Shown here piece after piece: positions 27,701 to 31,286 of a stretch of DNA of 32,713 nucleotides. The position numbers and the translations under genes are program-made. Numbering within the stretch: position 1 is the stretch's first letter; each line of letters opens with the position of its first letter. Source of the stretch: a virus; IMG/VR virus record IMGVR_UViG_3300032288_002021, positions 1 through 32,713 of that record. One strand, written 5' to 3'. The notes below the pieces were generated by a model. That model was not told the DNA's origin and made no database searches. It saw only the letters and a program-made list of their open reading frames with translations.

Positions 27701-27870
27701 AGCAATTCAAGGCGTTCGCGGGCGGTTCGCAGAGCGGCGTACCGCTGATGAAGCCGCTGCAAAATAGATGCGCGGCGGCGCTCGGCGCGTTCCTGATTCA
27801 GCATGTCAAGCAGTTGCTCCTCGGTAAAAGTGTGCAAGTGCTTGTTAATTTCCCGCCAAGTCATTGTCAT
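27679..27870 (-). CDS. Small coiled-coil protein of the helicase operon
   Basis: This 63-residue, Arg/Leu/Glu-rich helical protein opens MTMTWREINKHLHTFTEEQL and continues through NQERAERRRASILQRLHQRY to an ARERLELLKLA end. I recall close relatives in other phages as unnamed proteins. The start ATG at 27870 has a GGAGG site and overlaps the helicase stop (ATGA), so the helicase and this protein are coupled. A longer frame upstream lies inside the helicase gene. It may bind nucleic acid or the helicase, which is inference. Confidence 0.75.
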   Translation of the reverse strand: MTMTWREINKHLHTFTEEQLLDMLNQERAERRRASILQRLHQRYAALRTARERLELLKLAVRP

Positions 27871-29204
27871 CTTAAAGCCTCCAAAGCCACATCTGAAATG
27901 TCGCGCTTGTCGTGAAGCGCGGCCCATATCTGCTCATCGACCGTATCCGTAGAGAGCAGCGCGTACACCCATACCGCGTGCCGTTGCCCGCTGCGGTGTA
28001 GCCGGCCAATGGTCTGCTCAAATAGCTCCAGCGACCACGGCAGCGACACAAACACAATCCGGCAACCGCCGTGTTGCAGATTCAGCCCATGCCCCGCCGA
28101 ACGCGGGTGAAGCAACAGCAGCTCAATCTCGCCCCTATTCCACCGTTCCACCGCCCGGTCGTCGTCGAGCGTGACGGCTTTGGGATACCGGCGTTTAAGC
28201 TCGGCTAGCTCCTCTTTATACCAATACGCAATAATAGTATTGGCTTTCTGATTTTCCTGCAACAAATCGTCTAGGGCGTCAAACTTGTGCGTGCTGAACC
28301 AATGCGGCGTTTGGGTCGTCGTAAACTTGCCTGGCGTATCAGAAGGCGTTTGCGTAGTCTGGTAAACGAACCCGGACCCCATCTGTTGCAGCTTGGCCGT
28401 AACCACGCCGGCATTGAGGGCTGTAATAGTCGCCGTGCCGAACTGAGCTACAAAGGTTTTTTTCATCTTTTCATACGGCCCACGGTCGTCCAGAGGGCTG
28501 TGCAAGGGCACCAGATTCAGCGGCGGGAGGGTGTCGCTGTACTCGCCCGGATCAAGGAGGAACGTCGCCGGCTTGATTTTCTGCATGACGGCCTCTAATG
28601 CCCCAGAGCGCGGTTCCCATTCACCGTAGTCTTTGTTGACCAGTATGAAATGCTGTTGCAAAAACGCGCCCTTGCTGCGCCCCAAAAGGCGCTCGTCGAT
28701 GATTTTGCATTGGCCGAATACGTCTTCCAGCCCGTTGCTAGTGAAACTACCTGTTAGCCCCCATCGAATAGACATCGGACCAATGACCTTATGAAGCGCC
28801 TTAAACCGGGCGCCGGACGGGTTTTTGAGCCGCGTCAGCTCATCGAACACAATAGCGTCGAAGTTAAGCGCCTGGCCGGACAGCCATTGCAGATTGTCGT
28901 AATTTGTCACGACAACGGGCGCGTTTGACTTGAGCGCCGCTGATCGGGCCGCTTGATTTCCGACTGCAATCGAGATTTTGAGCAACGGCGCCCATTTTGG
29001 CCCTTCAACCGGCCATACGTCGGTGCAAACGCGCTTAGGCGCCAGCACAAGAAACCGCTTGACGACCCCGCGCAAGATCATATCTTGCATGGCCGTAAGC
29101 GTGATGGCCGTCTTGCCCGCGCCGACCGGCGCCAGAATCATTGCTCGGTCGCGCTCAAACAGGAAGTCAGCCGCCGTTTCTTGATAGAGACGCAATGAAG
29201 GCAT
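27867..29204 (-). CDS. SNF2-type superfamily 2 helicase/ATPase
   Basis: This 445-residue SF2 ATPase of the SNF2 type acts on DNA during replication or recombination. The Q-like start LRLYQ is followed by Walker A APVGAGKT at residues 25-32, motif Ia LAPKRV, and motif II as FDELTRLKNP with DELT at 121-124. A GLTGSFTSN segment is motif III-like. The C-terminal lobe ends with QTIGRLHRSGQ at 397-407, the arginine-finger motif of SNF2 proteins. The start ATG has an AAGGAAG site and overlaps the nuclease gene by 38 bp, implying that helicase and VRR-NUC are made together. Confidence 0.9.
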   Translation of the reverse strand: MPSLRLYQETAADFLFERDRAMILAPVGAGKTAITLTAMQDMILRGVVKRFLVLAPKRVCTDVWPVEGPKWAPLLKISIAVGNQAARSAALKSNAPVVVTNYDNLQWLSGQALNFDAIVFDELTRLKNPSGARFKALHKVIGPMSIRWGLTGSFTSNGLEDVFGQCKIIDERLLGRSKGAFLQQHFILVNKDYGEWEPRSGALEAVMQKIKPATFLLDPGEYSDTLPPLNLVPLHSPLDDRGPYEKMKKTFVAQFGTATITALNAGVVTAKLQQMGSGFVYQTTQTPSDTPGKFTTTQTPHWFSTHKFDALDDLLQENQKANTIIAYWYKEELAELKRRYPKAVTLDDDRAVERWNRGEIELLLLHPRSAGHGLNLQHGGCRIVFVSLPWSLELFEQTIGRLHRSGQRHAVWVYALLSTDTVDEQIWAALHDKRDISDVALEALR

Positions 29205-29454
29205 TTACTTCTTCCTTATCCCACAGTAATACATAGTTTTGCTTGAGCGCGGCCATGTCGTCGGCAAAAATGGCTTGCAGCGCGGACAGCCTTCCGCCAG
29301 GACGCTTAAGTTCAACGAACCAAGTTCGACCGTCCGGGAAACAGGCGATTCGATCCGCGACGCCTCGGTTTGCGGGGCTTGTAAACTTCCACGTTCTGCC
29401 CCCGGCTTTCTGGACCGCCCAGACGAAATAACGCTCGATTTCGGATTCTTTCAC
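29167..29454 (-). CDS. VRR-NUC domain nuclease
   Basis: This 95-residue protein is a stand-alone VRR-NUC (PD-(D/E)XK-type) nuclease. KESEIERYFVWAVQKAGG carries Glu5. PANRGVADRIACF has the Asp34 of the GxxD motif. TWFVELKRPGGRLSALQ has Glu48-x-Lys50 and Gln60. These make the full active site. Family members cut branched or flap DNA. I placed the start at the GTG at 29454 after a GGGGGC stretch; a TTG at 29511 would add 19 residues that run through the divergent control region. It is the first gene of the leftward operon. Confidence 0.88.
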   Translation of the reverse strand: MKESEIERYFVWAVQKAGGRTWKFTSPANRGVADRIACFPDGRTWFVELKRPGGRLSALQAIFADDMAALKQNYVLLWDKEEVNAFIASLSRNGG

Positions 29455-29469
29455 ATTGCCCCCTTGTTT

Positions 29470-29511
29470 TTGACTGTGGTGCAGGGTAAGGTACGCAGCC
29501 TCAACAGTCAA
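29470..29511. promoter_or_regulatory. Inverted repeat in divergent control region
   Basis: TTGACTGT at 29470-29477 and its exact complement ACAGTCAA at 29504-29511 face each other across 26 bp, in the 69-bp gap between the leftward VRR-NUC gene and the rightward DUF2800 gene. Each arm holds TTGACT (5 of 6 to a -35 box). For the leftward side a 17-base spacer leads to TACCCT. The rightward -10 is poor. It could be a pair of overlapping divergent promoters or a regulator site. Confidence 0.5.
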
Positions 29512-29523
29512 CTAGGGTGCAAT

Positions 29524-30633
29524 ATGCAACATAGCAATATCGTCGGCGGCTCAACGGCCAAGCGGGTAATGAAGTGCCCAGGCAGCGTCACGCTGGTTCA
29601 GAAGATGCCCCCGCAGCCGTCCTCAAAGTACGCAAGCGAAGGCACCCTGCTGCACAACGTCATTGCCGAAATGCTGAACGGCAAACCGCTTGAGTCTTTC
29701 ATTGGCATGACTCACGAAGGCGTCACGCTGACGCAAGAATTGGCCGACGAAAAGTTACTCCCGGCGATGGCGGCGCTTGAGGAGATTGACCCCGATAAAC
29801 AGATGGAATACGCCGTTGAGTCTCGCGTGGGTTTCTCTGGGACGCTGGAAGGGGTGTTTGGCTCTACAGACTTGCTTGGGCGTTTAGGCGACCGCGCTAT
29901 TGTTCTGGATTGGAAGTTTGGCGACGGCGTGGCCGTCGAAGCTGAAGAAAATCCACAATTAATGTTTTATGCCGCTGCGGCTATGAAGACCGAAACGACC
30001 GCATGGGTATTTGAAGGCGCGAAAGAAATTGAGTGCATTATTGTGCAGCCTCCCGCGATCAAACGGTGGGTAACGTCGTTTGACCGTCTGCGCTTTTTTG
30101 AGCGTGAGTTGGAGTTGGCCGTCAAGCTGTCTGCCAATCCGACGCCGCCGTTCGCGCAGGGCGACCATTGCCGTTGGTGCAGTGCGAAACCCATTTGCCC
30201 GCTAATGACTGGCGCCGTTGAGCGCGCGTTGCAACAGCAAGTAACCGCACTACCCGCGCAGCAGATCAGCGATTACTTAGCGGTCGCTGACACGCTGGAA
30301 TCGTGGATTAGCGATTTGCGTGCCTTGGCTATGCAGATGATGGAGAATGGCGCTAAACTCCCCGGGTACAAGCTCGTCGCTAAACGCGGCACACGCAAGT
30401 GGATCGACGAAGCTCGCGCTAAGGCTGCGTTGATGGCGCACCTTCCCGAATCTGAGGTGGTTGATGTTAGTCTGATTTCGCCGGCACAAGCGGAGAAGAA
30501 GCTGAAGAAGCTAAAGCTCTCGCTGCCGGCGGACCAGGTGGTGTCAATCTCCTCTGGTAGCACCTTTGCGCCGGTTAGTGACCCCCGGCCTGAGGTGATT
30601 GATCTTGCTCGGTCACTTAGTAAACTAATGTAG
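29524..30633 (+). CDS. DUF2800-type PD-(D/E)XK nuclease with Fe-S cysteines
   Basis: This 369-residue protein resembles DUF2800 phage proteins and the RecB/Cas4 nuclease group. I see ASEGTLLHNVIAEML with His44 (RecB-type H motif), GSTDLLG with Asp116, VLDWKFG with Asp129 and Lys131, and NPQLMFYA with Gln145 and Tyr149, which give the complete active site. Cys18, Cys216, Cys219 and Cys225 (C-n-C-x2-C-x5-C) match the Fe-S signature of AddB/Cas4-type nucleases. It likely resects or processes DNA ends. The start ATG at 29524 follows the control region; longer open frame upstream overlaps the nuclease on the other strand. A good ribosome site is not obvious. Confidence 0.88.
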   Translation: MQHSNIVGGSTAKRVMKCPGSVTLVQKMPPQPSSKYASEGTLLHNVIAEMLNGKPLESFIGMTHEGVTLTQELADEKLLPAMAALEEIDPDKQMEYAVESRVGFSGTLEGVFGSTDLLGRLGDRAIVLDWKFGDGVAVEAEENPQLMFYAAAAMKTETTAWVFEGAKEIECIIVQPPAIKRWVTSFDRLRFFERELELAVKLSANPTPPFAQGDHCRWCSAKPICPLMTGAVERALQQQVTALPAQQISDYLAVADTLESWISDLRALAMQMMENGAKLPGYKLVAKRGTRKWIDEARAKAALMAHLPESEVVDVSLISPAQAEKKLKKLKLSLPADQVVSISSGSTFAPVSDPRPEVIDLARSLSKLM

Positions 30634-30644
30634 GAGAATTGATA

Positions 30645-31286
30645 ATGTCTAATATCGTAAAGTTCGGTAATGCGAATCTGCCTGTTGCCGCGTTGTCCAC
30701 GGCGTTGCGGTCTGTCCAAGCGGATGTTGGCGGCGCAGGCGCCGCGATCCTCAAGATGGATCGTACCGGCCATTGGGTCTACGGCGCAGATCAGACCGAG
30801 GTGGATGATGATGCAACGTGGGCCGTCAATCCTTTCAGCTTCGTTCACGGTTATATCGCGTGGGGCGATGGCGAAGTGTTGGGCGAAGCGATGGCTCCAA
30901 TCAATCAGCCGCTTCCTGACCTGGCTCCCGTGCCTCCGGGCGCGAAGAAGGGGTGGGAGAAGCAGATTGGTTGCTCGCTGAATTGCATCAGCGGGCAGGA
31001 CTCAGACCTTGAAGTCAGGTATACCACTACTAGCGTTGGAGGCAAGAAAGCCCTCCAAGCGTTGGCTGCTGCAATCGCAGCGCAGGTGGATGCAGACCCG
31101 ACGAAGCCGGTGGCTATTGTTCGACTTGGCAAGGATCATTATCAGCACAAGTCCTATGGCCGCATTTACACGCCGGTATTTGAGGTCGTCGAATGGGTGG
31201 ACTTGGACGGCAACGGCAAGCAGACGGAGGCGGCGCTCGCACCCTCGCCCGCTCCCGCTGAATCTGGCCGTCGTCGTCGAGTCTAA
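30645..31286 (+). CDS. Conserved replication-module protein, possible DNA-binding partner
   Basis: This 213-residue protein has a strong TAGGAGA ribosome site. It has an ordered body with GHWVYGADQTEVDDDATWAV, a NPFSFVHGYIAWGDGE segment, then KDHYQHKSYGRIYTPVFEVV, and ends in a short basic tail. I recognise the pattern from phage proteins placed between a DUF2800 nuclease and a family A polymerase, without a known function. In other phages that slot often holds a DUF2815-type single-strand DNA binding protein. I cannot confirm an OB fold here, so DNA binding is inferred from position only. A terminator follows eight bases after its stop. Confidence 0.75.
   Translation: MSNIVKFGNANLPVAALSTALRSVQADVGGAGAAILKMDRTGHWVYGADQTEVDDDATWAVNPFSFVHGYIAWGDGEVLGEAMAPINQPLPDLAPVPPGAKKGWEKQIGCSLNCISGQDSDLEVRYTTTSVGGKKALQALAAAIAAQVDADPTKPVAIVRLGKDHYQHKSYGRIYTPVFEVVEWVDLDGNGKQTEAALAPSPAPAESGRRRRV

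Follow-up and report, generated by a model that had tools for sequence, protein, structure and literature searches.

A DUF2800 protein of a freshwater phage with the predicted site of a RecB/Cas4-type nuclease and a putative four-cysteine metal staple

The 369-aa DUF2800 protein encoded at positions 29524–30633 of a freshwater phage looks, to judge from its sequence and predicted fold, like an active nuclease of the RecB/Cas4 type that carries a putative four-cysteine metal staple. The best overall explanation, which is considered probable, is that of a RecB/Cas4/AddB-type phage exonuclease which stands alone, carries a metal staple and is engaged in end resection within an exonuclease–single-stranded DNA-binding protein (SSB)–polymerase module. 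The window, that is, the whole stretch of DNA analysed, is 32,713 bases long and comprises all of IMG/VR record IMGVR_UViG_3300032288_002021; its end falls within the polymerase gene. The structural genes of the window have PHROG matches to portal, scaffold, coat, head closure and DNA ejection proteins, among others.

Table 1. Positions of the DUF2800 gene, its predicted functional residues and the neighbouring genes in the window
Feature	Position	Strand	Basis or conservation
DUF2800 protein, predicted RecB/Cas4-type PD-(D/E)XK nuclease with putative four-cysteine staple	29524..30633	+	Pfam, PHROG, AF2, Foldseek
Cys18, N-terminal ligand of predicted staple	29575..29577	+	334/336
His44, RecB motif histidine	29653..29655	+	336/336
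Glu99, further invariant acidic residue	29818..29820	+	336/336
Asp116, putative metal-binding aspartate (GxxD)	29869..29871	+	336/336
Asp129-Trp130-Lys131, D-x-K core of predicted PD-(D/E)XK site	29908..29916	+	D129, K131 336/336
Gln145...Tyr149, Q-x3-Y motif	29956..29970	+	336/336 each
C216-x2-C219-x5-C225, C-terminal ligands of predicted staple	30169..30198	+	C216, C219 336/336; C225 334/336
213-aa probable OB-fold ssDNA-binding protein, phrog_9528, C-terminal end GRRRRV	30645..31286	+	weak fold call
DNA polymerase family A, cut by contig end	31326..32711	+	PF00476 3.6e-14, phrog_17 1.8e-63
VRR-NUC-like endonuclease (longest ORF)	29167..29511	-	phrog_93 2.5e-25; Pfam VRR_NUC below cut-off
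SNF2-type DNA helicase	27867..29204	-	PF00176 5.4e-11, PF00271 4.2e-08, phrog_62 4e-119

The family name given in the initial annotation is correct: the protein belongs to DUF2800 (PF10926) with a score far above the Pfam gathering cut-off (2.3e-56; 192 bits against 21) and over the full model, residues 8–356 aligning with positions 5–368 of 368. It also belongs to the PD-(D/E)XK nucleases of the RecB type, possessing the H, D, D-x-K and Q-x3-Y motifs in order and a PDDEXK_1 match above the cut-off (5.6e-13; 49.8 bits against 22; residues 37–226), and its PHROG match is phrog_69, ‘exonuclease’ (1.3e-66). Among 105 diverse DUF2800 members, 101 match PDDEXK_1, eight match the TIGR00372 cas4 model and single members match Dna2 or AddB models. 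A search of the PDB by sequence alone found no significant relative.

The nuclease reading is correct but mostly known, the family having already been placed among Cas4-like nucleases, and the suggestion that its function is obscure is out of date. DUF2800 has been described as PD-(D/E)XK (PMC8093625) and as a RecB family exonuclease (PMC9503304), and has been placed in the Cas4 superfamily (PMC4711790, PMC8306868); phage records annotate DUF2800 proteins as ‘Cas4 family exonuclease’ and PHROG 69 is labelled ‘exonuclease’. The window’s protein resembles other DUF2800/PF10926/phrog_69 exonucleases in Pfam and PHROG scores, length, motifs, cysteines and neighbours. Nothing essential differs, although its clade has another protein in the SSB slot and carries the VRR-NUC and SNF2 genes on the opposite strand. 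The family, which has relatives in 1,092 of 50,697 phage records and is thus very common, is still listed as of ‘unknown function’ in Pfam; quantitative conservation and a confident model confirm it as an intact Cas4/AddB-type nuclease. A literature search found no paper reporting activity or metal content for the family; assays of its metal and of resection are directly worthwhile.

Conservation was assessed in an alignment of 336 homologue rows drawn from viral contigs, bacterial genomes and named phages, in which the query is present three times and which holds 55 representatives at <60% identity. H44, E99, D116, D129, K131, Q145, Y149, C216 and C219 do not vary in any of the 336 rows, and C18 and C225 are each cysteine in 334. 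The conservation of these residues far exceeds chance. The residues listed in the initial annotation (C18, H44, D116, D129-W-K131, Q145, Y149, C216, C219 and C225) all lie in the ORF exactly at the positions given, E99 being the invariant residue that the list lacked; the claim of a complete RecB-family nuclease site is upheld by the invariance in 336 rows, the PDDEXK_1 match and the fold matches. In the C-terminal domain (approximately residues 230–369), K283 is invariant and R288 and R291 are strongly conserved; the domain is particular to DUF2800 proteins, and its probable role is in binding DNA or partners.

The cysteines follow the pattern of a staple, with one N-terminal cysteine (C18) and a conserved C-x2-C-x5-C after the nuclease core (C216, C219, C225), the spacing of which is kept in 328 of 336 rows. 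Since the peptide GDHCRWC had been used in some of the searches, 160 homologues fetched with cysteine-free patterns were counted separately. Poor conservation of the cysteines had been named at the outset as an argument against the predicted cluster; all four are present in 160/160 of these homologues. In the same set, the fifth cysteine, C171, varies freely (M in 120, L in 29, T in 5, also I) and serves as an internal control. Because the four are fully conserved while C171 drifts, they appear to be strongly selected as one set, and C171 does not. The homologue in Lactococcus phage 1358 (L128:5875-7095), which is the only exception at C18 and C225, carries C18→S and C225→D jointly and keeps C216, C219 and the whole active site. 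This joint loss agrees with the four cysteines lying together in space, and the homologue represents a natural test of the staple’s purpose.

The structure prediction proposed as a check gave a confident AlphaFold (AF2) model from the alignment of the 105 diverse members (pLDDT 92.3, pTM 0.82). Its best Foldseek match in the PDB is AdnA of mycobacterial AdnAB (E 1e-8), followed by the Argonaute-associated ACE1 (2e-6), Cas4 SSO0001 (3e-6), RecE (3h4r, 9e-6), MGME1 (1e-5), Exo5 (3e-5) and Dna2 (4e-5); type I-C Cas4, lambda exonuclease and DUF3799 protein 3L0A (rank 35, E 1.5e-3) are also among the matches. The model is both confident and similar to staple-bearing folds; the predicted RecB-type nuclease site and four-cysteine staple are strongly supported by conservation, the PDDEXK_1 match and the model together. 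C216-x2-C219-x5-C225 aligns on the C-x2-C-x5-C of the Cas4-family protein ACE1 (9iab), a weak match (E 0.17). The closest folds are the nuclease domains of AdnA and AddB, and the N-terminal and three C-terminal cysteines are arranged as in AddB (PMC3466216); unlike these, the DUF2800 protein stands alone, has no helicase fusion and possesses an extra C-terminal domain. With the phage exonucleases RecE and DUF3799 it shares the recombination exonuclease fold and, with DUF3799, four cysteines. DUF2800 is, however, a separate Pfam family, the DUF3799 crystal holds Zn, and RecE and DUF3799 pair with RecT, which is absent here.

By analogy, Cys18 and Cys216/219/225 would join both ends of the nuclease fold round a metal centre, most likely a [4Fe-4S] or [2Fe-2S] cluster, as in Cas4 and AddB, or else Zn. 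Cas4 binds Fe-S via one N-terminal and three C-terminal cysteines, as does AddB; Cas4, which has these same four cysteines, is an Fe-S exonuclease of 5'-3' polarity (PMC3466216). The DUF3799 protein 3L0A of Eubacterium rectale, one of the Foldseek matches, carries Zn on the same four-cysteine arrangement, although the authors of that study note that the metal may be an expression artefact (PMC3466216). Thus, of the Fe-S signature initially proposed, the conserved four-cysteine pattern stands, whereas the choice of Fe-S over Zn is not established. The tolerated loss of two of the four ligands in Lactococcus phage 1358 is also in line with a structural zinc in an otherwise identical nuclease; Cas4, a fold match of the model, holding Fe-S (PMC3466216) argues the other way. 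The four cysteines should hold an iron–sulphur cluster or zinc, Fe-S being the more likely reading by analogy and zinc a serious rival, though clearly the less favoured. If zinc is the metal, proposals of redox activity or DNA-end sensing that depend on Fe-S do not apply. A further point against zinc is that the remaining matched four-cysteine enzymes are generally known as Fe-S proteins.

The DUF2800 gene, the gene of the 213-aa protein and DNA polymerase A follow one another on the plus strand, and the VRR-NUC-like and SNF2 genes lie divergently upstream on the opposite strand. The neighbours named in the initial annotation were thus rightly recognised, the VRR-NUC assignment resting on phrog_93; the likely start of that gene is a GTG at 29454. 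Among 155 related loci, the 213-aa gene is directly downstream of DUF2800 in 148, VRR-NUC is present in 147 and SNF2 in 140. The set of exonuclease, DUF2815/Enc34 SSB, polA, VRR-NUC and SNF2 is found, whole or in part, in Vibrio, Staphylococcus, Streptococcus, Rhodobacter and Liberibacter phages. The exonuclease–ssDNA-binding protein–DNA polymerase A arrangement, with VRR-NUC and SNF2, is already known from phages as a replication/recombination module, and has been given the name duf2800-gp2.5-polA module (PMC8093625). In 36 DUF2800-bearing records (the window record and 35 related ones, which are fragments of two clades and not independent samples), no Pfam match to YqaJ/lambda-exo (PF09588) or DUF3799 (PF12684) and no RecT relative was found, so that, among recombination exonucleases of these kinds, DUF2800 stands alone in the 36 records.

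Conservation and fold suggest that H44, E99, D116, D129, K131, Q145 and Y149 form a Mg2+-dependent PD-(D/E)XK site. The protein is likely to act as an exonuclease near the polymerase, since the exo–SSB–polA order is conserved; its nuclease fold is shown, and activity, direction, substrate and metal are inferred. Judging from gene order, the nuclease would resect double-strand ends of replicating phage DNA, the SSB would then coat or anneal the resected strands and the family A polymerase would extend them, as a recombination/replication module analogous to gp6-gp2.5-gp5 of phage T7. The T7 exonuclease, T7-type SSB and family A polymerase constitute a functional set, as in the DUF2800 module, and a PD-(D/E)XK exonuclease is unlike T7 gp6. 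A further difference from T7 is that the SSB-slot protein of the window’s clade is not gp2.5- or Enc34-like by sequence.

A true Cas4, with which the phage would supply or misdirect CRISPR adaptation in its host, would have precedents in the Cas4-like protein of Campylobacter phages, linked to spacer acquisition (PMC4283603, PMC5704561), and in a Liberibacter prophage DUF2800 protein called cas4 (PMC4711790). The DUF2800 protein shares with Cas4 (SSO0001, TIGR00372, PF01930) a common fold, the order of the active site and four cysteines with C-x2-C-x5-C. It scores, however, only 15 bits against the TIGR00372 NCBIfam cut-off of 65, has a longer C-terminus and is not beside cas1 or cas2; its context is one of replication, with no cas gene among the genes examined. 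A profile comparison (hhalign) with ten Cas4 proteins of bacterial genomes gave nothing significant, and kinship with Cas4 therefore rests on the PDDEXK_1 profile and the fold. By model score the protein is Cas4-like and not Cas4, and the CRISPR role is highly unlikely. Least probable of all is a relative without catalytic activity that serves a structural or DNA-binding purpose; some Cas4 relatives are structural (e.g., the TTV1 nucleocapsid protein, PMC5704561), but here the active site speaks against it, all seven active-site residues being invariant in 336 rows.

The less expected part of the locus is not the DUF2800 nuclease but the 213-aa protein downstream of it. Its GRRRR tail is encoded at 31269–31280, and an RRRR end is present in 140/140 full-length homologues. 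PF10991 occurs in 0/18 records of the window’s clade against 18/18 of the other DUF2800 clade, and phrog_9528 shows the reverse distribution; SSBs of the other clade mostly have acidic ends (DDDDDFLN). An Enc34-type SSB (PF10991/DUF2815) was considered for the 213-aa protein and rejected: the window record has no PF10991 match, the hhalign probability is 0.1% and the tail, GRRRRV, is not acidic. A model built from a reduced alignment of homologues has a pLDDT of 75 and no significant PDB match, most of the weak hits being SSBs. Foldseek ranks first, over the whole length of the protein, the recombination directionality factor (RDF) of phiC31, a match that is likewise non-significant (E 0.04). 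The PHROG label of phrog_9528, ‘nucleotidyltransferase / polyribonucleotide nucleotidyltransferase’, was traced to Caulobacter phage annotations; the distant homologues have no nucleotidyltransferase Pfam match, and the label, which looks like a propagated mis-annotation, is considered unreliable.

An acidic C-terminal tail is usual in prokaryotic SSBs, and T7-type SSBs end in acidic residues. An arginine-tailed SSB in place of an acidic-tailed one is plausible, and the protein offers an exception, open to testing, to the rule that SSBs of bacteria and phages have acidic tails. More tentatively, an OB-fold protein that is either unrelated or extremely diverged may have taken the place of the standard acidic-tailed SSB of the DUF2800-SSB-polA module in this large clade of freshwater phages; its GRRRR tail might recruit its partners, the exonuclease or polymerase, through the opposite kind of charge. 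Distant relatives of the 213-aa protein end in GRRF in Caulobacter phages, RRRSF in a Mesorhizobium phage and RRRR in a Nostoc phage. In the Caulobacter giant phages and the Mesorhizobium phage, the arginine-tailed protein directly follows a different four-cysteine RecE/Cas4-like exonuclease, phrog_434 (L418:2772-3869, L416:2724-3860); the pairing of a Cas4-like exonuclease with an arginine-tailed protein therefore recurs with another exonuclease family. In Salmonella phage PhiSEP1 (L125:7303-7932), a gp2.5-like SSB (phrog_112) adjoining DUF2800 has a tail that is first acidic and then arginine-rich (DDEEDETPRRERRRNR), possibly an intermediate tail type.
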